Virus record (IMG/VR): IMGVR_UViG_3300032296_003089
Span: 1-28,334 of that record
From: a virus
DNA length: 28,334 nucleotides
Strand: one strand, 5' to 3'
Position 1 is the first letter of the stretch. Each line of letters starts with the position of its first letter. Below the pieces are notes generated by a model. That model was given only the letters and a program-made list of their open reading frames with translations. It ran no database searches and was not told where the DNA came from. Below are positions 207 to 27,820 of the stretch, piece by piece. Both the position numbers and the translations under genes were made by a program.

Positions 207-238
207 TTTGGCTCTGTAAATAATATTTCGTATATTCA
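207..238 (+). promoter_or_regulatory. Bacteroidetes-type promoter for the 36-aa membrane peptide
   Basis: TTTGGCT (TTTG at 207-210) is separated by exactly 20 nt from TATATTCA (231-238). This fits the known Bacteroidetes primary-sigma consensus (TTTG at -33, TAnnTTTG at -7). A GTTCACA heptamer lies 6 nt upstream of TTTG. An A-rich leader follows up to the ATG at 260. Confidence 0.75.
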
Positions 239-259
239 GGTATAATTAAAAATAATAAC

Positions 260-370
260 ATGTATCCAAATCAAAAACCCGCTCTCGCCGATTACATTTT
301 AATATTGGCTATTGTTTTCTTCTCAATATGTCTAGTACTTAAAGTCATAGTAACGGCATCGCAAATGTAG
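260..370 (+). CDS. 36-residue single-pass membrane peptide
   Basis: A short frame of 36 codons starts with ATG after an A-rich leader and ends in TAG. The first ten residues are polar (MYPNQKPALA). The rest is one continuous hydrophobic helix (ILILAIVFFSICLVLKVIV, about residues 14-32) with a short tail, so it should be an inner-membrane peptide. It has its own promoter 20-50 nt upstream and sits between two near-identical promoter cassettes, which argues that it is expressed. There is no homology signal I recognise. Small phage membrane peptides often act as holins, superinfection-exclusion or anti-defence factors; none can be assigned here. Confidence 0.6.
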   Translation: MYPNQKPALADYILILAIVFFSICLVLKVIVTASQM

Positions 371-393
371 TTTTTATATTGTTCACAACCCCA

Positions 394-425
394 TTTGGCT
401 ACCCAAGGGTTTGGTTGTATATTTA
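394..425 (+). promoter_or_regulatory. Bacteroidetes-type promoter for the 60-aa gene
   Basis: TTTGGCT (TTTG 394-397), 20-nt spacer, TATATTTA (418-425) followed by GG. As in the first promoter, GTTCACA (381-387) lies exactly 6 nt upstream of TTTG. An A-rich leader leads to the ATG at 451. Confidence 0.8.
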
Positions 426-450
426 GGCAATAATTAAAACACATAACAAT

Positions 451-633
451 ATGAGAGAAGATTTGATTAACAGAGTAATTGATTTGCAGATCAAGTGCAA
501 CAACATGATTGATGTTTATGGTGAGTGTGATGTTGAAACTGCTGATGAGGTGGTTAGATTAGCCGATAGCTTGACCTTTGATGAGTCAAGTGAAGTAATA
601 AAACGATACACCCAACGTTTGGCTTCCAGATAA
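451..633 (+). CDS. Small acidic helical hypothetical protein
   Basis: A 60-residue protein, predicted by eye to be mostly helical and acidic, with two cysteines (KCNNMIDVYGEC, residues 15-26). There is no membrane segment and no recognised domain. The ATG follows an A-rich leader about 25 nt after a strong host-type promoter, and there is no Shine-Dalgarno sequence. The promoter of the next gene starts inside the last codons of this one (TTTG at 618-621), so the two genes are separate transcription units that overlap slightly. Function unknown. Confidence 0.65.
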   Translation: MREDLINRVIDLQIKCNNMIDVYGECDVETADEVVRLADSLTFDESSEVIKRYTQRLASR

Positions 634-649
634 AGGGATGTTATATTTA
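618..649 (+). promoter_or_regulatory. Bacteroidetes-type promoter inside the 3' end of the preceding gene
   Basis: TTTGGCT (TTTG 618-621), 20-nt spacer, TATATTTA (642-649). The upstream box overlaps the last codons of the 60-aa gene. The A-rich leader AATAATTAAAAAACACAT follows, up to the ATG at 676. Confidence 0.75.
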
Positions 650-675
650 AATAATAATTAAAAAACACATATAAT

Positions 676-933
676 ATGAGATTAGAAAAAAACGCACCCC
701 AAAACCAACTTGAACGTGAAGTTGAAACAATTTTGATAGACAATGGATATGCAATTAGCAATATTGAATTCCGAGATGTGGTCTATAAAGACGAAACCCG
801 TTACCTGAGAGTTGGTTATTGGAACCATTTATCAGATAAAGCACTTGCCCAGTTAGGGGATCGTATTAAAGAAACCATTGACTCATATGATGATGATTGT
901 GGATGGCTCTATTATTATAAGTTGAATCATTAA
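676..933 (+). CDS. Hypothetical 85-aa protein
   Basis: An 85-residue soluble protein that begins with a basic/polar segment and a helix (QLEREVETILIDNGY), followed by alternating strand-like stretches (IEFRDVVYKDETRYLRVGYW) and a second helix, ending in an aromatic, acidic tail (DDDCGWLYYYKLNH). This suggests a compact alpha/beta fold. No catalytic motif is evident and I do not recognise the family. It has its own promoter and is followed after 22 nt by another small gene, probably on the same transcript. Confidence 0.65.
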   Translation: MRLEKNAPQNQLEREVETILIDNGYAISNIEFRDVVYKDETRYLRVGYWNHLSDKALAQLGDRIKETIDSYDDDCGWLYYYKLNH

Positions 934-955
934 TCAAAACCCAAAACATAAACAT

Positions 956-1120
956 ATGGATAAATTTACTGAAGCGGTTGATGCCGTTGGAATCGAAGTA
1001 GCAAATGCAGCAGTGGATGCTGTGGAACTAAGTGATGCGGATGGTGCTCATTCAATGTTTGAGGACATGGGAATGTTCGAACACGCACTGGCTGTGGAAA
1101 TAATTTATTTTAATGGTTAG
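956..1120 (+). CDS. Small acidic 54-aa hypothetical protein
   Basis: A frame of 54 codons starts with ATG 22 nt after the preceding stop and ends in TAG, directly before a perfect hairpin. The product is acidic and helical, rich in Ala, Val, Asp and Glu (EAVDAVGIEVANAAVDAVEL, residues 6-25), with five methionines. No promoter is visible in the gap, so it is probably co-transcribed with the gene at 676. Its composition is like that of small phage DNA-mimic or inhibitor proteins, but that is only a resemblance. Function unknown. Confidence 0.55.
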   Translation: MDKFTEAVDAVGIEVANAAVDAVELSDADGAHSMFEDMGMFEHALAVEIIYFNG

Positions 1121-1140
1121 GGATCCCAATAGTGGGATCC
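1121..1140 (+). terminator. Perfect 8-bp hairpin after the small-gene operon
   Basis: GGATCCCA and TGGGATCC form a perfect 8-bp stem around a 4-nt loop (ATAG), starting at the base after the stop codon of the 54-aa gene. There is no T-tract after it, so it is not a classical intrinsic terminator. It could protect an mRNA 3' end, or mark the border of the unusual region that follows. Confidence 0.5.
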
Positions 1141-1398
1141 TAGGAAGTATAATCTAGGGGTGCCGTACGGTATACGTGCGTATATATACGGTACTATGTA
1201 CTATATCTACCATGCGTGCCGCGGTCCATATAACGTGCCACCCGATAAAGGTGCGGAATATACCACAATTCAGCTCGTATACGATCTTTACGCACCGATT
1301 GTATATACGTATATACGCTCCATAGATATACCCTAATTTTCGAAATACCCCTTTGCACCACAAATAGCGAGATTCAAAATCTCTCTTTTATAAAATCC
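1141..1398 (+). other. Non-coding, palindrome-rich stretch upstream of the nuclease gene
   Basis: I see no credible gene in these about 260 bases. The stretch is visibly richer in G+C than its surroundings and full of self-complementary CGTATA/TATACG words: GCCGTACGGTATACGTGCG, GTATATATACGGTAC, CGTATACG, and GTATATACGTATATACG at 1301-1317. The 12-mer GTATATACGTAT recurs just after the nuclease gene (2061-2072). A 69-codon frame on the opposite strand is not convincing. The stretch could hold a replication or regulatory element, or be the flank of a mobile nuclease cassette. Confidence 0.5.
1301..1312. repeat. 12-bp repeat flanking the nuclease cassette, left copy
   Basis: GTATATACGTAT, continuing as GTATATACG, occurs here and exactly once more at 2061-2072, seven bases after the nuclease stop codon. 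The two copies therefore bracket the T5orf172-type gene. They are direct repeats, and each is internally palindromic around ATACGTAT. Confidence 0.5.
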
Positions 1399-1430
1399 TT
1401 TGGCATCGACGAAGTATATAAATATATTTG
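1399..1430 (+). promoter_or_regulatory. Promoter placed so that the transcript starts near the ATG at 1436
   Basis: TTTGGC (TTTG 1399-1402), exactly 20 nt, then TATATTTG (1423-1430), a perfect match to the Bacteroidetes -7 box. The upstream box overlaps the TTG at 1400 that would otherwise extend the downstream frame, so translation from that TTG is unlikely. The transcript should begin within a few bases of the ATG at 1436. Confidence 0.7.
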
Positions 1431-1435
1431 TATAT

Positions 1436-2053
1436 ATGTATAGAGATAAACTTACACTAAGTGAAGCACTTGAACTTGAGAATACAGGTGAAATAACGAT
1501 TGTTAGCACGTTGGATGATACTTCATACCACCCCCGCGCCTCCGAGTTTTACTCCAATTATATCGCATTAAAATCGAAGGCACGACATGTACAATCCGAT
1601 CGTATTTTTAAATATTTCCCAGCATTCTATTATATTGAGATCCCAGTACGTGTAGACGAAAACACAAAAGAGTGGTATTATCTCTACGGAATCAAAAACC
1701 TAGAAATTAAAAGCAAAACCAAAGACAACATTGAATATGTTTACGTTCTAATAAACCCAGGGTACCCAGATTTGGTTAAAATCGGTATGACAGAACGTGA
1801 TGTCTCCACACGTGCTAAATGGATTAATGGGGCAGGCGTATTAACAGAATGGTTACCTAAATTTGCTTTACCTGTGGTTAAGGGTTCTGCTTATAAAATT
1901 GAACAACAAATGCATAAGCTGTTTGCCGAATATAGAGTTGAATCCGATCAAGGACACGAGCGTGAATTCTTTAAATTAAATCCATTGACTGCATTTGATA
2001 AACTACGGGAAATTGGGGCGTTACACCAAGTAGGTGATCCAATTGTATATTAG
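1436..2053 (+). CDS. T5orf172/GIY-YIG-like nuclease-domain protein
   Basis: About 205 residues from this start. The C-terminal half carries a T5orf172 (MUG113-type) domain of the GIY-YIG nuclease superfamily: YVYVLINPGYPDLVKIGMT, with the paired strand 'YVYVL' and 'KIGMT' standing for the GIY and YIG motifs. It is followed by an Arg helix (STRAKWIN), an AYKIEQQMHKLFAEYRVES helix and the E-F-F-K-L ending typical of the family. The N-terminal about 90 residues are unassigned and may bind DNA. A TTG start at 1400 would add 12 residues, but it lies inside the promoter, so I chose the ATG. Codons are richer in G and C (CCCCCGCGCCTCCGAG in mid-gene) than in neighbouring genes, which fits a transferred or mobile nuclease cassette. 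Nuclease activity is inferred from the family. Confidence 0.75.
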   Translation: MYRDKLTLSEALELENTGEITIVSTLDDTSYHPRASEFYSNYIALKSKARHVQSDRIFKYFPAFYYIEIPVRVDENTKEWYYLYGIKNLEIKSKTKDNIEYVYVLINPGYPDLVKIGMTERDVSTRAKWINGAGVLTEWLPKFALPVVKGSAYKIEQQMHKLFAEYRVESDQGHEREFFKLNPLTAFDKLREIGALHQVGDPIVY

Positions 2054-2060
2054 TATATTC

Positions 2061-2072
2061 GTATATACGTAT
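2061..2072. repeat. 12-bp repeat flanking the nuclease cassette, right copy
   Basis: GTATATACGTAT, identical to 1301-1312, lies 7 nt after the nuclease stop codon and just before a terminator-like hairpin. Confidence 0.5.
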
Positions 2073-2087
2073 TAAAGTGTATGGGTG

Positions 2088-2114
2088 AAGGGTCCGCATG
2101 TGGGGGCCTTTTTA
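2088..2114 (+). terminator. Probable intrinsic terminator of the nuclease gene
   Basis: AAGGGTCC, loop GCATGTG, GGGGCCTT, then a short T run (TTTTT). The stem contains one mismatch or bulge but is closed by AAGG/CCTT. Position after the gene and the T-tract support termination. Confidence 0.6.
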
Positions 2115-2124
2115 CTTTCTCCAC

Positions 2125-2132
2125 ATATTTAT
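2125..2132 (+). promoter_or_regulatory. ATATTTAT motif upstream of the 99-aa gene
   Basis: ATATTTAT lies 24 nt before the ATG at 2157, with no TTTGGCT box at the expected distance. It belongs to the recurrent (A/T)ATATTTATAA motif found before many genes of this window (see 5505, 11282, 13999, 20294, 21361 and 26968). Confidence 0.4.
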
Positions 2133-2156
2133 GTTAAATAATCTATTAATAATAAA

Positions 2157-2456
2157 ATGAAAGCAACAGAACTTAAAAAATTAATTCGTGAAGAAATTCA
2201 TAGAGTATTAAATGAAGGATTAACTTTTGAAGAATTAGCAACAAAGTTAGAACAAATACCATTTGATGGGGATGATTTTACTTTTTCACAAGATGATGAT
2301 ATCATATATGTGGAAGTTTTGAGTGGAGGAAATAAAAAAGCAGTTTTACTAGCTATCCAAGCAATTCTAAAAGAAAACCCAGCATATAAAATAGACCCAG
2401 AGAGTAAAGAGAAAACTCCAGATGGTAGTGTACAATTTAGTATTATCAAAAAGTAG
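2157..2456 (+). CDS. Hypothetical protein with N-terminal amphipathic targeting-type helix
   Basis: A 99-residue protein. Residues 1-20 form a charged amphipathic helix (MKATELKKLIREEIHRVLNE) followed by Gly21, so that L-N-E|G matches the (L/I)-x-E cleavage site of T4-type prohead proteases. Related leader helices begin the genes at 11295 and 27817 and, less clearly, 27023. Residues 22-99 look like a small alpha/beta domain (helix EELATKLEQI, strands FTFSQDDDIIYVEVLSG, helix KKAVLLAIQAILKE, final strand SVQFSIIKK). No enzyme motif is seen. The inference is a minor protein packaged in the capsid and processed during assembly. The 3' end is followed by a compact, structured terminator region. 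Confidence 0.7.
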   Translation: MKATELKKLIREEIHRVLNEGLTFEELATKLEQIPFDGDDFTFSQDDDIIYVEVLSGGNKKAVLLAIQAILKENPAYKIDPESKEKTPDGSVQFSIIKK

Positions 2457-2472
2457 ATAAAAAATTAAAGAA

Positions 2473-2504
2473 AACGGACTTAGGACCGTTGTAGTTTAGG
2501 CTAC
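2473..2504 (+). ncRNA. Two small hairpins before the terminator: structured 3' UTR or small RNA
   Basis: AACGG (2473-2477) pairs with CCGTT (2486-2490), and directly afterwards GTAG (2491-2494) pairs with CTAC (2501-2504). The strong terminator hairpin at 2511 follows. Three consecutive stem-loops ending in a T-tract within about 75 nt are consistent with a stable 3' UTR or a small regulatory RNA. There is no open frame here. Confidence 0.35.
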
Positions 2505-2510
2505 TTAAGG

Positions 2511-2546
2511 CCCCGATGAATTCGCTACTCATCGGGGTTCTTTTTT
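2511..2546 (+). terminator. Strong intrinsic terminator
   Basis: CCCCGATGA (2511-2519) pairs perfectly with TCATCGGGG (2529-2537) around a 9-nt loop and is followed by TTCTTTTTT. This is the clearest terminator of the front region. It separates the 99-aa gene from the next promoter-driven unit. Confidence 0.9.
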
Positions 2547-2605
2547 ATTTTATATGGTTAATTTTCAACGCTCTAACATTTTCCTGCACCTTCTCTGCGC
2601 CCTTA

Positions 2606-2637
2606 TTTGGCTCCCCAGGAAATCGGTCGTATATTTA
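2606..2637 (+). promoter_or_regulatory. Bacteroidetes-type promoter for the small membrane protein / AT-hook unit
   Basis: TTTGGCTCCCCAGG (TTTG 2606-2609), 20-nt spacer, TATATTTA (2630-2637) followed by GG. The box with its CCCCAGG extension is repeated exactly at 3162. An A-rich leader runs up to the ATG at 2662. Confidence 0.85.
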
Positions 2638-2661
2638 GGTATAAATTAAAAATAACGGGCC

Positions 2662-2826
2662 ATGGTAACAACAGCAGCATTTATTTGGATGGCATATTGC
2701 GCAGTATCACATGTACGCATTGATGCCAAAAAGAAAGGTGAAGATTTGTCATTCAAGTCTCAAGGTATTTGGTATGTTATTCAAGTGTTGTTTTACTGGG
2801 TTCTAACAGCAGCGTTCATTATTTAA
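2662..2826 (+). CDS. 54-aa small membrane protein
   Basis: A frame of 54 codons begins with ATG after an A-rich leader and ends in TAA. It has two hydrophobic stretches (TAAFIWMAYCAVSHV, residues 4-18, and GIWYVIQVLFYWVLTAAFII, 35-54) separated by a charged loop (RIDAKKKGEDLSFKS). This suggests a two-pass or hairpin inner-membrane protein with the loop in the cytoplasm. It is driven by a clear promoter and followed after 22 nt by the AT-hook gene. It resembles small phage membrane proteins of unknown role, and no specific family is recognised. Confidence 0.65.
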   Translation: MVTTAAFIWMAYCAVSHVRIDAKKKGEDLSFKSQGIWYVIQVLFYWVLTAAFII

Positions 2827-2848
2827 TAATTAAACACAAATAAAGGTT

Positions 2849-3154
2849 ATGGAACAAAAACGTCGTGGTCGCCCACCTGGGCCTAAAAAAGAAATCAAAA
2901 TGGAATTGAACACAACTACTACTACTGAACCAAAGAAACGTGGTAGAAAAGCAGTAGAAAAACCTACAATTGTATTCCCTGAAAATCCTGTTGAAGGTGA
3001 AGTTGAGGGTACAACAGTAGAAAAACTGAAGTTCATGGCTGTCCAAGTAAAACAAATGGATAAGCAACTGGACATGGAGCCGTATCGAATGGATCTTCGA
3101 ATGAAGAAACATGACGCAATTCAAAGAATGTGCCACTTGATAGGAGACTTGTAA
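2849..3154 (+). CDS. Small AT-hook DNA-binding protein
   Basis: A 101-residue basic protein. Residues 4-14 read KRRGRPPGPKK, a textbook AT-hook (core RGRP flanked by basic residues and prolines) that binds the minor groove of AT-rich DNA. A second, degenerate basic patch (KKRGRKAVEKP, about residues 28-38) may be another contact. A Thr run links the two. The C-terminal half (residues 50-101) is helical and amphipathic (VEKLKFMAVQVKQMDKQLDM) and may dimerise. AT-hooks are mainly known from eukaryotic HMGA proteins but also occur in bacterial and phage proteins. In an AT-rich phage this could be a genome-compacting or transcription-modulating protein. It is co-transcribed with the membrane protein upstream. 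Confidence 0.7.
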   Translation: MEQKRRGRPPGPKKEIKMELNTTTTTEPKKRGRKAVEKPTIVFPENPVEGEVEGTTVEKLKFMAVQVKQMDKQLDMEPYRMDLRMKKHDAIQRMCHLIGDL

Positions 3155-3161
3155 CAGGAAA

Positions 3162-3193
3162 TTTGGCTCCCCAGGAGCTTTGACGTATATTTA
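3162..3193 (+). promoter_or_regulatory. Bacteroidetes-type promoter for the DUF932 gene
   Basis: TTTGGCTCCCCAGGAG (TTTG 3162-3165), 20-nt spacer, TATATTTA (3186-3193), continuing as TAG. It is followed by an A-rich leader of about 35 nt. The -7 region also matches the TATATTTATA motif seen before structural genes. Confidence 0.85.
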
Positions 3194-3230: not shown

Positions 3231-4031
3231 ATGTTAAACATTCAAAACAACACATTCCTGACAGAGTCAGAAATCAAAGCAAAAGCAAGTTCAATCTTCA
3301 CAGCTAAAGGTGCTCCAGGTACTAGTGAAAAATATGCTCACATTTCAACCGATCAAATTGTCAAAGACATGGCTAAATTGGGTTGGGGAGTAGTTGATGC
3401 TAAACAAGTACGTGCCCGTAAAGATGAGGGTTATCAAAAACACCTAGTTGTGTTCCGCAACAATGATATTGTTATCAATGGAGAAGATGGTGATCATGCT
3501 TACCCACAGATTCTACTAACTAATAGCCATGACGGTAAAAACGCATTTACTTTCACAGCTGGTTTGTTCCGTATGGTGTGTGAGAATGGTTTGGTTATTT
3601 GTTCTAAGGAGTTTGAAAATCTTAAGATTCGTCACTACGGATATGATTTTGAAGAATTGCAAAAAGTTATTGGTACAATAGTTGAAAAACTTCCACTAAC
3701 CGTTGAATCAATGAATAAGTTTAAGAAAAAGAAACTCCGTAAAACACAAATCGAAGAATTTGCTAAGAAAGCAGCTGCAATCCGATTCGGGGTAGAACAA
3801 CTTCAAAACATTACTATTGATTATAACAAGTTGATTGAACCAACTCGTGAAGAAGACAAAGGTAATGACTTGTGGAGTGTATTTAATGTGGTTCAAGAAA
3901 AACTAGTACACGGTATGTTTGAATACACAGCAGGTACTAAGTTGCGTAAAGCAAGAAAAATTAAGAACTTTAAACAAGACCTTGATTTGAATGCTAAGCT
4001 ATATGAACTTGCAGTTGAATATGCAGCTTAA
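3231..4031 (+). CDS. DUF932 family phage protein
   Basis: A 266-residue protein with the layout of DUF932/phage-plasmid-like (TIGR03299-type) proteins: an N-terminal region with YAHISTDQIVKDMAKLGW, a central strand-rich part with LVVFRNNDI and the characteristic FTFTAGLFRMVCENGLVIC (about residues 105-123), and a helical C-terminus with a stretch corresponding to W-S-V-F-N-V-V-Q-E-K. Family members are widespread in phages and plasmids; their function is not firmly established. It has its own strong promoter and a long A-rich leader, so it is probably made early and in quantity. The small downstream gene overlaps its last 11 bases. Confidence 0.8.
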   Translation: MLNIQNNTFLTESEIKAKASSIFTAKGAPGTSEKYAHISTDQIVKDMAKLGWGVVDAKQVRARKDEGYQKHLVVFRNNDIVINGEDGDHAYPQILLTNSHDGKNAFTFTAGLFRMVCENGLVICSKEFENLKIRHYGYDFEELQKVIGTIVEKLPLTVESMNKFKKKKLRKTQIEEFAKKAAAIRFGVEQLQNITIDYNKLIEPTREEDKGNDLWSVFNVVQEKLVHGMFEYTAGTKLRKARKIKNFKQDLDLNAKLYELAVEYAA

Positions 4032-4212: not shown

Positions 4213-4213
4213 T

Positions 4214-4337
4214 GGTCAAGTGGCGGAATTGGTAAGACGCGACAGATAGTTATAGTACTGTGGGTAAAAAAGAGAATGTGTACACATCTTGGTCCCTATA
4301 GTGGCAGCCTATGTAGGTTCGAATCCTACCTTGACTA
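4214..4337 (+). tRNA. Atypical class II (Leu-like) tRNA, anticodon unclear
   Basis: The ends are clearly a tRNA: acceptor GGTCAAG pairs with CTTGACT (one G-U), the D-arm TGGCGGAATTGGTAAGACGC is of Leu type, and the T-arm GTAGG-TTCGAAT-CCTAC is perfect. The middle is abnormal. The whole is about 124 nt instead of 85-95, the expected anticodon arm (ACAGATAGTTATAGTACTGT) pairs only with a bulge, and a further long hairpin (GGG...ATGTGTACACAT...CCC) and an ATAG...CTAT stem lie before the T-arm. If the bulged stem is real, the loop GTTATAG would carry UAU, which is odd for a Leu-type body. It may be a degenerate tRNA, one with an insertion, or a tRNA-like element. Confidence 0.6.
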
Positions 4338-4342
4338 CAAAT

Positions 4343-5504: not shown

Positions 5505-5515
5505 AATATTTATAA
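5505..5515 (+). promoter_or_regulatory. AATATTTATAA motif, candidate late promoter
   Basis: An exact copy of the recurrent motif, ending 2 nt before the ATG at 5518. No TTTG box lies 20 nt upstream. If it is a -10-type element, the transcript would be leaderless or nearly so. Confidence 0.5.
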
Positions 5516-7021: not shown

Positions 7022-7293
7022 TGATAGCTATTGTTATATTAAGTTTAATGGTTGTGATCTTAGGATACACAACCTTTAACTTACTTAGAAAAAATGAAAA
7101 GCAAGAAGATATTCTAATGGGGTATATGTCTTACTTAAATAAAGTATCTGATATAATCGAAATGTCAGATAAAAAACTTAAAGAAGTAGATGCTAAAGAA
7201 TCATTTAAATCAGATGATGAGGTGGGTTTTTTCTTTGAGTCTATTAAACAAATCCAAAGTGTACTAAATCAGTTTAATATTAAAAATTTATGA
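7018..7293 (+). CDS. Small membrane-anchored helical protein
   Basis: A 91-residue protein with an N-terminal transmembrane helix (IAIVILSLMVVILGYTTFNL, residues 3-22), then a positively charged turn (LRKNEKQ) and an amphipathic helical region (YLNKVSDIIEMSDKKLKEVD). It is translationally coupled to both neighbours: ATGA overlap with the HD gene, and its stop overlaps the sigma-factor start. Single-anchor proteins of this size are often found next to replication or transcription genes in T4-like phages without known role. The orientation is probably N-out, C-in, by the positive-inside rule. Confidence 0.65.
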   Translation: MMIAIVILSLMVVILGYTTFNLLRKNEKQEDILMGYMSYLNKVSDIIEMSDKKLKEVDAKESFKSDDEVGFFFESIKQIQSVLNQFNIKNL

Positions 7294-8000
7294 GTAGTGA
7301 AGTAGTGGTAAAGCCAAAAACTAGTGGGATGTATTTTACTCAAGAAACAGAAAATGCTATTATTGAATATAATAATACTTTAGATTTTGAATTAAGAAGT
7401 AAAATATATCATGATCGAATTCACTATGCGTTTTTTAAATTAACCGAAAACATCATTCATACTTTTAAGTTTTATTATACTGAGGTGAGTAATATTGAGG
7501 ATTTACAACATGAAGTAATTTCATTTTTGCTTTCTAAAATCCATTTATTTGATCCAAGTAAAGGAGCTAAAGCATATTCATATTTTGGTACTATTGCTAA
7601 ACGTTATCTTATTATTTCTAATACTAAAAACTATAAAAAACGAGTAGACAAAGCACCAATTGAAGAACTTGAGTCTGATGGAAAATATAGTTACTCCTTA
7701 TCAGATGATCCTGTAGATAAACTTTCTTTATTTTTAGATGAATTTACAAACTATTGTTCTCAACATATATATGAACTTTTCCCTAAAGAAGGAGATGCTA
7801 AAATAGCAGATGCTATTCTAGAATTATTCCGTAAAAGAGAGAGTATAGAGATCTTTAATAAAAAAGCACTGTATATATACATCCGAGAGATAATTGATGT
7901 TAAAACCCCTAAAATCACTAAAATAGCAAATAAATTATATGATATGTTTAAAGAACATTATTATTTTTATTTGGAAAATGGTTATACAAATTTTCCATAA
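7290..8000 (+). CDS. gp55-like late RNA polymerase sigma factor
   Basis: A 236-residue protein. Residues 67-110 match the region-2 core of phage sigma factors related to T4 gp55: IEDLQHEVISFLLSKIHLFD, then PSKG and AYSYFGTIAKRYLI, which corresponds to the core-polymerase-binding and -10-recognition helices. A linker and a helical C-terminus follow (residues 140-236). As in gp55, a full region 4 for -35 recognition is not evident. Such factors redirect host RNA polymerase to late promoters with only a -10-like box. This fits the AATATTTATAA motif in front of many genes that follow. The start is set by the ATGA-type overlap with the upstream membrane-protein gene. Confidence 0.8.
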   Translation: MSSEVVVKPKTSGMYFTQETENAIIEYNNTLDFELRSKIYHDRIHYAFFKLTENIIHTFKFYYTEVSNIEDLQHEVISFLLSKIHLFDPSKGAKAYSYFGTIAKRYLIISNTKNYKKRVDKAPIEELESDGKYSYSLSDDPVDKLSLFLDEFTNYCSQHIYELFPKEGDAKIADAILELFRKRESIEIFNKKALYIYIREIIDVKTPKITKIANKLYDMFKEHYYFYLENGYTNFP

Positions 8001-11281: not shown

Positions 11282-11292
11282 AATATTTATAA
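11282..11292 (+). promoter_or_regulatory. AATATTTATAA motif, candidate late promoter
   Basis: An exact copy of the motif lies between two structural genes and ends 2 nt before the ATG at 11295, the same spacing as at 5505. Confidence 0.5.
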
Positions 11293-13998: not shown

Positions 13999-14009
13999 TA
14001 TATTTATAA
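13999..14009 (+). promoter_or_regulatory. TATATTTATAA motif, candidate late promoter
   Basis: One base different from AATATTTATAA. It overlaps the gp6 stop region and lies 6 nt before the ATG at 14016. Confidence 0.45.
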
Positions 14010-15483: not shown

Positions 15484-18400
15484 ATGGCTACTCTAATCAA
15501 TGAAATAGATCCTATTACTTTTGAAACTCAAAACTATTCTCCTCAGGATATATCAGCTATGTCCCCAGAGATAGTCAATTCAGTTTTTGATCCTAGTAAA
15601 GGAGATTATGTTGAATATACAATAATATCTCCTGATAATTCTTTTCAAGTAACAGATCAAAATCTTGAAAATATTATTATAACTAGTACAGATGCTAGTA
15701 ATGGAGCTGTTTTTAATATTGATCTAGATCCTGAAAGAGATTTAAAAAATAAAGGATTTAGTAATGGTGAATATAATGTTGTATATAGTTTTTTACGAAA
15801 AGAATTAGGATCCTCTTCAGATAATAGAGCGTATTTTATTAAAGAAATATCACCTGATAGGACAGAATTAAGATTAGCATCTAATATTTTTTCTAACGAT
15901 GAGTTAGTCACATTAGCTAATGATTTTAAAGCTCAACTTAATTCATCAGAATATTTCCAAGATTTTTATCTTAATTTTGGTAGTAATAATTTAATTATAG
16001 CTAATAATATATTACTTGATAATACAAAAAATAAATATGAGATATTAATTAACCTATATGAGCCTCTACCAACACGTTTTAGATTAAAAGATGTGTTATG
16101 GGTTGTGACTCAAACTGCTGACCCATTAGCTTTTAACATACAATTTCAACCTGAAGTTATATTTCCTATAATTACTAATCCTACTCTTAATAGCCCTAAT
16201 TTTAATTTACCTATTAAGAATAGAACTAATAACTCAACTAATTATATTAATTATGAACAATTACTAAACACAAGTTTAGTATCTTCATATGATCAAATTT
16301 TATCTTATTTGGAAGATAAAAGTGTTAGTATAGGAATTGATTATACTGATTTTTCAAACTTTGTTCATTTTTCATCTGCTGAATCTCGAGTTAAAAATTT
16401 TTTCTATAAAGTTCAATTAATAGAACAATATAGTGCTAGTTTGGAAATAGTAGATGCAGCTAATACAGCTATTACATCAAGTACAATTATATTACAAGAA
16501 AAAATATCTAATATAATTAGAAACTTTGATGGATTTGAATACTATCTTTATTATACTTCTGGGTCAAATGCTTATCCTAAAGGAAATACATCTCCACCAT
16601 ATTCTTTATTAACTAGTAGTAATGCTGCCCCACAAACCTGGTATACCTCATCAGTAATGAGTGCTTCACTTTATGATGCTATTAATAAAGATTATTTATA
16701 TAATACTATTCCTACTTATCTAACAGATGACCCTCAAAATGAACCCTATAAGGTATTCATTGATATGATAGGACAATATTATGATAATATATGGATTTAT
16801 TATAAAGATGTATCAAATAGATACAGTGGTGATAACCGTTTAGAATACGGTATATCTAAAGATTTAGTAGCAGATGCTATTAGATCATTTGGTCTTAAAA
16901 TATACCAAAATAATTTCTCAGTAAGTGATTTATTTGATGCATTCACTGGATTTAACCCAGGGAGTTATACACGTTCAACTTCACCAAATCCTCTCCCAAC
17001 AGGGTATGATGGAGAATTCATAAGTGATTATATATTCGTATCAGATCAGTCTCTCTATACACCTATAGATGATGTTAATAAGGAAATGTATAAACGTATT
17101 TATCATAACTTACCTTATCTATTAAAATCTAAAGGAACAGTAGCTGGTTTGCAAAATATTATTAGTATGTTTGGTATAACTAGTTCTATTTTAACTATAA
17201 GAGAATTTGGAGGAGCCTGGGCTTCAGGAACCCCAGTTACTGGTATTCAAGATATTGTTACTGACAATATTCAGATTTTAACTAGTACTCAAATGTCCCA
17301 ATCTTTTCCTCCAATTATACCTCCAAATGCTACTATTGATACTTATACTAATGTACCAAAATTTGTTTTATCTTCTCAAAAAAGTATTTTACAAAATTAT
17401 AATGAATATCCAGTTGTAGCTACTAGTTTATCTCCTAGTGTTAACACTGTAGAAATAACATTTTCACCTCAAAATGATATAGATAATTACATTAAATCTC
17501 AAGGTAATTTTGATATAGGAACGTATATTGGTAATCCATCTCAAGCATTTTTACCTTACTATCCTGATTTATATACTCGGGCTAACGTCTTATTAGGTGG
17601 AGGAGATTATAATTTGGTAGCTTATATTCGTTTAATAAAATATTTTGATAACTCATTGTTTAATATGATTAAAGATTTTGTTCCTGCTAGAACAAATCTA
17701 AAATCAGGTATTACTATTAAACCTCACTTACTAAATAGAAGTAAACATGTTCAACCTCAAGTTTTCTTTAGTAGTAGTATATATAGTGGATTAATTAACA
17801 CAACCTTTATTGAAGGAGGAGCTGGTGGTACTTTTAATGAATTTAATGTATTAGCTAATCCTTTTAATACTCAATCTTGGAGTGAAACTATTATAACACC
17901 TCTAGGCCCAACCCGCTCAATCCATAGGGATCAATCTGAATTTTATAATGGAGAATTACCTTATTACCCTACAGAAGCTTTTACAGCTAATGGAGAATTA
18001 AACATTAATAACCCATATAAATACTCCTCAGACGCTCAAATACCTTATACTACACGATTATTTACTGAAATATCTCTTGTTAGTTTTTTAAACACTCTTA
18101 ATCCACCTCCAGGACAAATATATTATTGGGGTAATATTCTTCAATCTCCTTTAAGGTTAAATGTAGTTGCTATGAAAATTAATGCTATAGATAGTAATGG
18201 TGTTAATTATATTAATATTTTAAATAACTTATACTCCATCACTATGCCTGTAGTTAGCCCTATACAAAATAGTGCAACAAAAACTTTTCGTGTAGGAACA
18301 CCTTCATTAACCGGAAATGTTTTTACTTATGGCGTCATCTCAGATCCTTTTTCTAATTTTGCAGGGAATGAAATTCAAAGTGGTTATGTGACCTTTATCC

Positions 18401-20310: not shown

Positions 20311-21330
20311 ATGTCATTTAAAAGGTTAGACTCTGAAGATTTTGTATTTAATATTGACTCAGTTGCTATTCCCTCTTGGTCAAATCATTCATCTTCATTA
20401 GTAAGTTTTTATACATCTTCTTTTCAATCATCCTTTTCTTCCCGATATTATCTAGACATTTATGATAGTCCTAATACAAGTGATAATTTAGAAAATCTTA
20501 ATGACATCCAATTTGCTATAGCTTATGCTGACTCTGATGGATCTGGATCAGTTTGGTATAGTCCAATAACCCCAGGTCAATCCCCAACAAGAACAGTATA
20601 TGGGCAATTTGTAAATTTATTATTAGGTGAAGATGAAAATACCTCTTTTAATTTTGGAGGATATAATGACAGTGATTATTTTTTCGCTATAATAATTAAT
20701 AGATCCCGCTATAAACAGTCTATCATGCCCGGAAGTCTTCAAATTAGAGGACTAACAGGATCTGATATATATTTAACAGACAATAGTCGTATAACCCCCA
20801 TTGTAGACTATACCCCAGCAGGAAGAAGATATTCACTAGGCTCAGGCAGTTTTGGTGATGGAGTAATACCCTCAAGTTTACTCACTACCGGACAAGGAAT
20901 ATATGGTTACCTTTACCCAGATGTAGGAGTTATAATTCTAAATCCAAGTGCTTTTTCCCAAGAAATACTAGAACCTGAAGGAGGTAATCCTTCAGCATTT
21001 GTTAGAGGATTTAACCAAAATAGTAATAATCCTGAAGGGTTAAGGTATTATTTAACTCAACTAACTTTACAAAGTGAAGAAACAATAGCATCAAACTATA
21101 TGTTTTGTAGAGCTAGAAATGCTGAATTTAACTACTCAACCAATCCAACCTTTTCTCCTTCATTTTATTCATCATCACTTAATGAATATATATTAACCCC
21201 AGCTACATATATTACATCTGTTGGGATGTATAATGATAATAATGAATTATTAGCAGTGGCTAAATTATCAAAACCACTTAAAAAAGACTTTAACAGTGAA
21301 GCTTTAATACGTGTTAAATTAGATTTTTAA
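20311..21330 (+). CDS. Tandem structural paralogue 1
   Basis: A 339-residue protein, first of four related genes. Family features visible here are the N-terminal MSFKRLDSEDFVFNIDS, the central RTVYGQFVNLLLGEDE, the PGSLQIR and YLYPDVGVIIL strands, CRARNAEFNYSTNPTF, and a conserved ending YITSVGMYNDNNELLAVAKL followed by SKP and a final strand IRVKLDF. The order of conserved ends around variable middles suggests a shared attachment scaffold with divergent exposed parts. No transmembrane or enzymatic motif occurs. Such repeated genes after the baseplate module are likely to be virion decoration, neck or fibre-type proteins. It is closest to paralogue 2, with long stretches of identical DNA. Confidence 0.65.
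   Translation: MSFKRLDSEDFVFNIDSVAIPSWSNHSSSLVSFYTSSFQSSFSSRYYLDIYDSPNTSDNLENLNDIQFAIAYADSDGSGSVWYSPITPGQSPTRTVYGQFVNLLLGEDENTSFNFGGYNDSDYFFAIIINRSRYKQSIMPGSLQIRGLTGSDIYLTDNSRITPIVDYTPAGRRYSLGSGSFGDGVIPSSLLTTGQGIYGYLYPDVGVIILNPSAFSQEILEPEGGNPSAFVRGFNQNSNNPEGLRYYLTQLTLQSEETIASNYMFCRARNAEFNYSTNPTFSPSFYSSSLNEYILTPATYITSVGMYNDNNELLAVAKLSKPLKKDFNSEALIRVKLDF
20774..20807 (+). repeat. 34-bp DNA identity block shared with paralogue 2
   Basis: These 34 bases, from TAACAGACAATAG to CATTGTAGA, are identical to 22530-22563 in the second paralogue and encode the TDNSRITPIV segment. Flanking codons are far more diverged, and near-identity resumes for another 40 bases. Confidence 0.7.
20900..20943 (+). repeat. 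44-bp DNA identity block shared with paralogue 2
   Basis: These 44 bases, from TATATGGTTACC to AATTCTAAAT, are identical to 22647-22690 and encode YGYLYPDVGVIIL. Identity includes all silent positions, although the sequence just downstream is unrelated. Confidence 0.75.
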
Positions 21331-21360: not shown

Positions 21361-21371
21361 AATATTTATAA
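21361..21371 (+). promoter_or_regulatory. AATATTTATAA motif, candidate late promoter
   Basis: An exact motif copy in the 59-nt gap after paralogue 1, 18 nt before the ATG at 21390. The gap is the longest in the structural module, so a new transcription start here is plausible. Confidence 0.5.
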
Positions 21372-26202: not shown

Positions 26203-26969
26203 GTACAATAAAACACTCTTATAATCGAATTTTAGAAATATCTGACGATCATAAGCAAATCACATTACCCGACTCTAGATTTTATAGACGAAACGGTAAT
26301 TATTATCCATCTGTGACTTATGTATTAAGTTATTACCCAAAAGGTAAATTTTTTGAAGATTGGCTTAAGAAAGTAGGTTACGCTGCTGAACATATTGTTA
26401 AAAAAGCAGCTGAAGAAGGTACTCAAGTCCATGAAATGATTGAAGAGTATTTAAATGGGGCTGAATTAAAATTCTTATCACCTCAAGGTTACCCACAATA
26501 TAATCCTGAAGTATGGCAAATGTTTTTACGTTTTGTAGAATTTTGGGAAACCCATAAACCTAAACTTATTGAAACCGAAGTACACCTATTCTCAGACGAA
26601 TTAAAAGTAGCAGGCACTTGTGATATGGTTTGTGAGATAAATGATGAATTATGGGTTATAGATTTTAAAACATCTAACCAAATCCAGACTACATACGAAT
26701 TACAAACCGCAGTTTACACTCAATGTTACAAAGAGTGTTATGGAAAAGAAGCTCAACGTAATGGAATACTATGGTTAAAATCATCTAAACGTGGTCCTAA
26801 AAAAGATAAAATGCAAGGTAAAGGATGGGAAATAGTTGAACCGGAACGTACATTTGAGGAAAACATTGAAATATTCAAAACGGTACGTAAATTATTTGAT
26901 CTGGAAAACCCAACATCATCACCTTCATTTGAATCGTTCCGAACTACTGCAAAACGGGAAGACATTTAA
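26199..26969 (+). CDS. PD-(D/E)XK nuclease, RecB/Cas4-like exonuclease
   Basis: A 256-residue protein with the motif series of RecB-type nucleases: GTQVHEMIEEYL (His78), LIETEVHLFS (Glu126), VAGTCDMVCEI (Asp142), LWVIDFKTSN (Asp155-x-Lys157) and YELQTAVYTQCY (Gln169). These residues form the metal-dependent active site. No four-cysteine iron-sulfur cluster of true Cas4 is visible. In phages such enzymes act in recombination, end processing or degradation of host DNA. The coupling to primase (4-nt overlap) points to replication or recombination. The N-terminal 60 residues (SVTYVLSYYPKGKFFEDWL) resemble the usual entry region of this family in phages. Confidence 0.85.
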   Translation: MSTIKHSYNRILEISDDHKQITLPDSRFYRRNGNYYPSVTYVLSYYPKGKFFEDWLKKVGYAAEHIVKKAAEEGTQVHEMIEEYLNGAELKFLSPQGYPQYNPEVWQMFLRFVEFWETHKPKLIETEVHLFSDELKVAGTCDMVCEINDELWVIDFKTSNQIQTTYELQTAVYTQCYKECYGKEAQRNGILWLKSSKRGPKKDKMQGKGWEIVEPERTFEENIEIFKTVRKLFDLENPTSSPSFESFRTTAKREDI

Positions 26970-26978
26970 TATTTATAA
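26968..26978 (+). promoter_or_regulatory. AATATTTATAA motif after the nuclease gene
   Basis: An exact motif copy overlapping the nuclease stop codon, 44 nt before the kinase ATG. A second, variant copy (27010) lies closer to that ATG. Confidence 0.45.
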
Positions 26979-27009
26979 TAAAAGACTTGGCTTGGCCAAC
27001 ATTCTGCAT

Positions 27010-27020
27010 TATATTTATAT
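27010..27020 (+). promoter_or_regulatory. TATATTTATAT motif 2 nt before the kinase start
   Basis: A variant motif copy ending 2 nt before the ATG at 27023, the same spacing as at 5505 and 11282. The gap before it holds GACTTGGCTTGGCCAAC, a TTGGCCAA palindrome of unknown role. Confidence 0.4.
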
Positions 27021-27022
27021 AG

Positions 27023-27820
27023 ATGATAAGACTAACCGATTTACTTAAAGAAATGATAAATAACCCGAAAGCTATTATTATGGCTGGAGGAGCATCAGTC
27101 GGTAAATCAACAGTACTAAAATCGTTACAACCCGTATTAAAAGGATTTGTAGACTTAAATGCTGACAAATATGTTGAAGATAAAGATTCTCCAATGTATG
27201 GTAATTTATCTGCTGCCTCTGTTCAAATAAGAAAAACGGATTTACCTAACGCTGTTGACAACCAACAAAATCTTATTTACGATACTACTGCTTCTAATTT
27301 ATCTACGTTACAACCAACTTTGGATAAATTAAATGATATGGGATACGAAACCATGATGATAATGGTTTATGCTCATCCAATAATATCATTTTTAAGAAAC
27401 TATAAACGTGAACGTAAGGTACCAGCAGTTGGTGTTTTAGGAACATGGGCTAATGTTTATAATTTGTTAGAAGATTATAAACGTATTTTTGGTGATAATT
27501 TTGTTTTAGTTAATACACCTGCCTCTGAAGAAGAACAAACCGAAATAAATAATTTTGAAACAGCTTATCAACAAGGCAAATTAAAAGAATACTTCTCAGA
27601 CTTACTAGCTTCAGGTCAATTTCAATCAACTTTTAGAAAAGATGATTCAACCTTATCACCTGAGGAATTAGAAAAAAGAGAAAAAGACAGAGCTAAAACT
27701 AAAGTTACTTTAGATAAAAGCATAGATAAAATAGCTGATACTTATGATAGTATTCAAGCTAATTTAAATCCTGTTGATAGCAAAGAGTTACCTAACATAG
27801 TTAAAAAATTTGTTGGATGA
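27023..27820 (+). CDS. Zeta-toxin-like P-loop kinase
   Basis: A 265-residue protein. After a ten-residue leader (MIRLTDLLKE) comes a P-loop: AIIMAGGASVGKSTVLKSL, with Walker A at residues 22-30. Next is FVDLNADKYVEDKDSPMYGN (Asp44/Asp48, the position of zeta-toxin substrate residues), then NLIYDTTASNLSTLQPTLDK with the usual D-T-T, a strand YETMMIMVYAHP and an arginine-bearing helix (FLRNYKRERKVPAVGV) that would form the lid. Zeta-type kinases phosphorylate UDP-sugars or other small molecules; phage members are known but substrates vary. The C-terminal 80 residues are charged and helical. The leader resembles T4 internal-protein leaders (L-x-E at residue 10), suggesting packaging. It overlaps the next gene by 4 nt. 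Confidence 0.75.
   Translation: MIRLTDLLKEMINNPKAIIMAGGASVGKSTVLKSLQPVLKGFVDLNADKYVEDKDSPMYGNLSAASVQIRKTDLPNAVDNQQNLIYDTTASNLSTLQPTLDKLNDMGYETMMIMVYAHPIISFLRNYKRERKVPAVGVLGTWANVYNLLEDYKRIFGDNFVLVNTPASEEEQTEINNFETAYQQGKLKEYFSDLLASGQFQSTFRKDDSTLSPEELEKREKDRAKTKVTLDKSIDKIADTYDSIQANLNPVDSKELPNIVKKFVG

Follow-up and report, generated by a model that had tools for sequence, protein, structure and literature searches.

A clade-specific promoter-type element with fixed spacing in Flavobacterium-type T4-like phages

Introduction

Does a promoter-like repeat in a phage genome belong to the ordinary promoters of the host, or does it form a class of the phage's own, and which polymerase would read it? 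The question is raised by the virus record IMGVR_UViG_3300032296_003089, whose entire length in IMG/VR (28,334 bases; hereafter the window) was analysed here. In its first 3.2 kb, the word TTTGGC recurs at a constant distance ahead of a TA..TT box. A preliminary description had read these repeats as seven strong, early and phage-specific promoters, tighter than the Bacteroidetes consensus that they resemble. We find that the repeat, termed class E, is a conserved, directional and clade-specific promoter-type element. We also judge it rather probable that class E is an early promoter class of this clade, with the host polymerase as its favoured reader.

Several window genes match T4-like myovirus proteins, namely the baseplate proteins gp25 and gp6, a primase and an exonuclease. 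Among isolated phages, the closest relative is immuto, a 160-kb Flavobacterium phage that infects Flavobacterium sp. LMO8; identities are 49% for the gp6-like protein, 42% for the DUF932 protein and 46% for a sigma-like protein, and the gene order is similar in the parts compared. As this nearest isolated relative infects Flavobacterium, the relatedness supports a host in the Bacteroidetes independently of the promoter argument. A search of cellular genomes with the DUF932 protein, made to find the host, gave no relative. Two protein searches yielded 160 related loci, corresponding to 1.39 Mb after removal of exact repeats. The clade so defined is large, almost wholly uncultured, and consists of Flavobacterium-type T4-like phages.

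Results

A fixed-spacing element in the window

Class E sites were identified with the spacer counted as 20 nucleotides (nt) from TTTG, which is the same layout as TTTGGC-N18-box. Six exact sites lie on the plus strand, at 207-238 (box TATATTCA), 394-425 (TATATTTA), 618-649 (TATATTTA), 1399-1430 (host-like TATATTTG), 2606-2637 (TATATTTA) and 3162-3193 (TATATTTA). The form TTTGGCT is present in five of them and TTTGGCTCCCCAGG in two, as had been described. The site at 207 precedes an open reading frame (ORF) of 36 amino acids (aa) at 260-370, the site at 394 precedes ORF 451-633, and that at 618, which overlaps the 3' end of the upstream ORF, stands before ORF 676-933. Further downstream, the site at 1399 lies ahead of a T5orf172 (GIY-YIG-type) gene with its ATG at 1436 (Pfam 3.5e-11), the site at 2606 ahead of ORFs 2662-2826 and 2849-3154, and the site at 3162 ahead of the DUF932 gene (3231-4031).

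A profile trained on relatives only, for which the highest score in ten Markov shuffles was 8.8, scored these six sites at 31.8, 42.5, 40.4, 10.8, 49.8 (the best match, at 2606) and 37.1, in order of position. It also found a weaker plus-strand site at 26986-27017 (CTTGGC-N18-TATATTTA; score 14.5) before the ATG at 27023, so that the family extends beyond the coordinates listed in the preliminary description. The seventh member proposed there, 5947 (TTTGGAG..TATAGTAT), was dropped, as it was not reported above a profile score of 8. Although the scores of 1399 and 26986 are near that of the best shuffle, both sites have counterparts with exact spacing in other phages: TTTGGCATCGA/AA..CAAG/CAC..TATATTT in the relatives G001, G005, G008 and G013 for the former, and TTTGGCTTGGCCAACATTCTGTATTATATTT at position 18311 of G010 for the latter.

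When TTTGGC..TANNTTT was allowed spacers of 14-22 (nine lengths) on both strands of the window, six matches were obtained against 0.57 expected, a number reached in none of 100 shuffles. In five of the matches, spacer and strand are the same; the sixth has a different spacer and is found on the opposite strand. The loose pattern TTTG..TANNTTTR gave nine matches against 4.9 expected, barely beyond chance; it is therefore the GGC extension that carries the signal.

Spacing, position and conservation in relatives

Among the relatives, TTTGGC-N18-TATATTTA occurs 84 times, compared to 0-2 times at each of the other spacings from 8 to 34 on the same strand and not once in the reversed control. TTTGG..TATATT was found 232 times at exactly 20 nt and 2-22 times at other spacings, and the wider pattern [TC]TTGG-N19-TA[TC]ATT matched 305 sites versus 8 in the reversed control. 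The letter following TTTG must be G: neither TTTGA, TTTGC nor TTTGT is in excess at 20 nt, and plain TTTG-N20-TAnnTTT was accordingly rejected as the signal. Within the 305 sites, the two letters after the box are TA (168), CA (56), AA (24) or GA (16). Position -5 is A in 87% and G in 4%, and -6 may be any of the four letters. Where the start point is expected, the box is followed by a conserved TATAATTAAAA-type stretch.

Seven phages were counted, namely immuto, the phage of the window and five large relatives. Of their 190 class E sites, 178 (94%) have an ATG within 90 nt downstream that opens an ORF of 30 codons or more; the share is 30% for random positions, and 23 of the 66 wrong-spacer matches are so placed. 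The test of equal frequency inside and before genes thus does not refute the promoter reading, and a search of the phage and its relatives gives both the exact 20-nt peak and the upstream enrichment. The median distance to the next ATG is 22.5 nt and the median ORF measures 94.5 aa. Nearly all sites of a genome share one orientation and cluster ahead of small genes, most densely in the 163-kb relative G001 with up to 12 sites per 5 kb. The first 3.2 kb of the window correspond to the end of the small-gene array seen in that relative.

Upstream of the DUF932 gene, 49 of 60 distinct relatives carry the layout with exact spacing, 32 of them with TTTGG, 16 with CTTGG and immuto with GTTGC. The box spacing of these promoters is constant and the intervening letters are variable, and relatives at 60-70% protein identity retain the layout. 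In immuto, GTTG-N20-TATATTTA-type sites occur at 31 places, keeping the spacing and the TTG core with GTTGC in use. The strict form TTTGG-N19-TANNTTT has three matches there, of which only the one at 20704 stands ahead of an ORF.

Specificity for the clade

That the element is phage-specific was borne out by a search of all IMG/VR contigs with the pattern TTTGGCT-N17-TATATTTA only. Clade homologues were present in 101 of the 120 loci listed (84%), with 308 class E sites over the 1.04 Mb of these 101 loci. With a control pattern whose spacer was two shorter, clade homologues were present in 22 of the 120 loci listed, with seven class E sites in 1.08 Mb. Each search gave at least 120 loci, and the comparison concerns the content of the listed loci rather than totals. 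No class E sites were found in the Flavobacterium phages FCL-2 and 6H or in half of Cellulophaga phage phi14:2. Nor was TTTGGC-N18-TATATTTA present in 13.3 Mb from four Flavobacterium genomes; since about one match would be expected by chance (an estimate), this absence shows a lack of enrichment only. A literature search found no study of Flavobacterium or Bacteroides phage promoters among the papers covered.

One match came from a contig of jumbo size, the 412-kb IMGVR_UViG_3300032007_000003, which holds seven class E sites (TTTGG/CTTGG..CGTATATTTACA) in 13.6 kb and a gp6 relative that is only distant (30% identity). In view of this pattern match, class E may reach into jumbo phages.

Comparison with the host promoter

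Promoters of F. johnsoniae have a weak -33 TTTG and a -7 box TAHHTTTG with nearly invariant T-6 and G-5, and transcription starts 4-5 nt past the -7 box (PMC6847099). In upstream regions of two Flavobacterium genomes (1.2 Mb; 639 regions from crude gene calls), we found TANNTTTG enriched in the sense orientation (271 versus 157), and TANNTTTA not enriched (257 versus 258). TTG precedes the host box by 18-20 nt with a peak at 19.

Class E shares with this Bacteroidetes primary-sigma promoter the TTG core at -33, the TA..TT box at -7, the separation of about 20 nt and A-rich leaders without a Shine-Dalgarno sequence. Every class E site in the window has the TTG core, and all except 26986 (CTTGGC) have TTTG. 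It differs in that -5 is A rather than G and -6 is free, so that class E boxes fall outside the host -7 definition. In addition, TTTGG or CTTGG (GTTGC in immuto) is obligatory and the -33 element is strong where that of the host is weak, and the spacer is fixed at 20 nt instead of varying from 18 to 20 around a mode of 19. The claim that the family is tighter than the host consensus therefore holds, and the departure, with A for G at -5, is larger than had been stated. The inference from promoter type to host phylum agrees with the Flavobacterium host of immuto.

Stem-loops at class E junctions

Native -33 segments were compared with chimeras in which their two halves had been exchanged between sites at the same cut. 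Native segments have the lower folding energy in immuto (z -5.5), G003 (-3.1), G009 (-2.8) and the DUF932 promoters (-3.8). With matched arms present in some genomes only, a universal class E stem-loop was rejected. In immuto (AAAAGAGTTGC..GCAGCTCTTTTTTCGTATATTTA) and G003 (AAGGCTTGGCTTCCCAAGCCTTTTTTGTTATATTTA), a stem-loop is followed by a T-tract reaching up to the -7 box, and we infer that such junctions act as terminator and promoter in one. Within the window, a GCTCC-CCA-GGAGC stem-loop overlaps the -33 region of the 3162 site (fold -8.4 kcal/mol), and no class E site combines a strong stem-loop with a T-tract.

A separate motif before structural genes

Structural genes in the window and immuto are often preceded by a different, late-type motif, TATTTATAA, termed class L. 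Five copies of the form ATATTTATAA are present in the window, all on the plus strand and just ahead of a gene: at 5506-5515 (ORF 5518), 11283-11292 (ORF 11295), 14000-14009 (ORF 14016), 21362-21371 (ORF 21390) and 26969-26978, the last shortly ahead of class E site 26986. An alignment of 91 class L sites contains no information upstream, i.e., no -35/-33 element, and the two classes have different gene neighbourhoods. The T4-type motif TATAAATA was rejected as the late motif, being mostly antisense or far from starts.

A candidate reader of class L is encoded on the plus strand at 7290-8000. Its protein matches Pfam Sigma70_r2 at 3.2e-4, below the Pfam cut-off, and 21 of 29 relatives match the late sigma family PHROG 234 (best 2.2e-4, limit E 1). 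A medium-confidence structure model (mean pLDDT 72, pTM 0.43) superposes on sigma domain 2 with Z ~9 and a root-mean-square deviation of ~3 over ~95 residues, where for helical models a Z below ~13 is not decisive. T4 gp55 was not among the structure matches listed, which excludes nothing. Because a sequence search of the PDB with the sigma profile found no match, the sigma identity rests on the Pfam and PHROG matches together with the model. Like the T4 late promoter (TATAAATA, read by the sigma factor gp55), class L is a short -10-type motif that lacks a -35/-33 element, lies upstream of structural genes and has a gp55-like sigma encoded nearby. It differs in the motif itself, ATATTTATAA, and TATAAATA is seldom sense-oriented before genes. 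The gp55-like sigma probably reads the class L motif.

Surroundings of the sites

Five nt separate the end of the -7 box from the ATG at both 1399-1436 and 26986-27023, and the transcripts would be leaderless if they start 4-5 nt past the box; that of the T5orf172 gene is probably so. Between a small ORF and this promoter, about 280 nt (1110-1390) contain no convincing gene and have many short palindromes (GGGATCCC..GGGATCC; TATACGTATA-type words that recur). A strong intrinsic-terminator-like sequence (CCCCGATGA..TCATCGGGG, then TTCTTTTTT) lies at 2500-2545, about 60 nt ahead of the 2606 site. A stretch at 4213-4340 resembles a tRNA-Leu (GGTCAAGTGGCGGAATTGGTAAGACGC ... GTAGGTTCGAATCCTACCTTGACTAC) whose middle part is unusually long, and ARAGORN made no call on it; it looks like a tRNA gene that is degenerate or interrupted. 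The annotation of immuto includes a full gene set for 7-deazaguanine DNA modification (queC, queD, queE, folE, queF-like and dpdA; locus L198, 18600-37000).

Discussion

We propose that class E comprises (T/C)TTGG(C) at about -33, 20 nt from TTG to the -7 box and TATATT(N)A at -7, and that transcription would start 4-5 nt past this box and continue into an A-rich leader without a Shine-Dalgarno sequence. Each site would drive one or a few small, mostly uncharacterised genes of an array at a stage that precedes late structural gene expression. The host RNA polymerase with the Bacteroidetes primary sigma factor would recognise the TTG core and the TA..TT box, and the rigidly spaced, strong -33 element with its obligatory second G would probably compensate for the missing host G at -5. 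We favour this polymerase because the TTG core is kept and no virion polymerase was identified. Many -33 boxes are embedded in a stem-loop, which in some cases is followed by a T-tract as far as the -7 box; a junction of about 60 bp may there end one transcript and start the next, in the manner of T4-type PeSLs. Late genes would use the separate motif ATATTTATAA, which has no -33 box and is probably read by the phage gp55-like sigma.

PeSLs, which reportedly mediate gene shuffling by recombination, are reportedly the subject of primary papers on T4-like myoviruses by Arbiol (2010) and Comeau (2014). By the title and role cited in PMC4503421, they are composite promoter-terminator motifs of T4-like phages, and so far as that citation goes they may resemble some class E junctions in joining a stem-loop or terminator to an early-type promoter between small genes; class E differs in having the -33 box inside the stem-loop at many sites and a stem-loop in a subset only. 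The early promoters of T4-type phages, with a consensus for each phage, are likewise a phage-wide motif ahead of many small novel ORFs, with an upstream box that varies by phage and a host-like -10 region (PMC1524935). The same combination of one motif, one reading direction and many small novel ORFs was found for class E (178 of 190 sites, median 94.5 aa). Class E differs in belonging to the Bacteroidetes-polymerase type rather than the sigma-70 type, and would share with them the use of host polymerase at the very onset of infection.

Some observations weigh against the host-read early promoter. Set beside the near-invariant T-6 and G-5 and the weak -33 element of the host (PMC6847099), A-5 in 87% and G-5 in 4% of sites mean a loss of G-5, which speaks against plain reading by the host sigma factor. 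Arm-matched stem-loops were absent from G001, G005 and G008 in the same fold test, so the stem-loop is not part of the core element. Early timing, for its part, is deduced from gene position, since class E sites stand before arrays of small genes without known function.

These departures also suit an alternative that we regard as serious although clearly less probable, in which class E is read by a phage-made specificity factor, either a sigma factor or a MotA-like activator at TTTGGC, and would be middle or delayed-early rather than immediate-early and host-read. Replacement of G-5 by A-5, a free -6, the obligatory second G and the invariant spacer (PMC6847099 for the host box) are all compatible with such a factor, as is the clade specificity. 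Variation of the -33 decoration between sub-lineages (TTTGG, CTTGG, GTTGC) is what co-evolution with a factor would produce. A more specific version, that the factor shifts polymerase specificity from G-5 to A-5 plus a rigid TTTGGC-N18, with co-evolving forms in the sub-lineages, is slightly more doubtful still. T4 MotA acts at a -30 box, and we know of no such reprogramming system described for the diverged Bacteroidetes sigma. However, the host TTG core and TA..TT are retained, and no MotA-like protein turned up, though none was searched for. The sole sigma-like gene found sits among late genes and matches a late-sigma family. Moreover, host-read promoters of some kind are needed by any phage that carries no polymerase in its virion, and ahead of the small-gene arrays class E was the only class identified.

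Ordinary host-type promoters, alike through descent or cassette spread within the clade and with extra letters under no special selection, would explain the host-like TTG and TA..TT and the greater likeness of sites within one genome than between genomes. Cassette spread is known for PeSLs in T4-type phages, as cited in PMC4503421, which provides a precedent as far as that citation goes. We nevertheless consider this unlikely, as the sequences between the boxes differ widely across sites while boxes and spacing are fixed, the layout is kept by relatives at 60-70% protein identity, and A-5 is opposite to the host preference. It is very improbable that class E is no promoter at all but a protein-binding site for packaging, partition or recombination, or a terminator only: a full stem-loop plus T-tract at some sites would fit this, but many sites have no stem-loop, and the strict orientation, the median of 22.5 nt to the next ATG, the -33/-7 layout with host core and the copies ahead of most genes in an array do not.

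As a host-read early promoter class or otherwise, class E flags members of the clade from raw sequence, with 15 fixed letters and the clade in 84% of the matches listed. Transcription units can be delimited precisely with it for hundreds of early-type genes without known function. Because class E lacks one of the host's nearly invariant letters, it poses a testable question on how promoters are read by the diverged Bacteroidetes sigma, for which an isolate pair, immuto and Flavobacterium sp. LMO8, exists.

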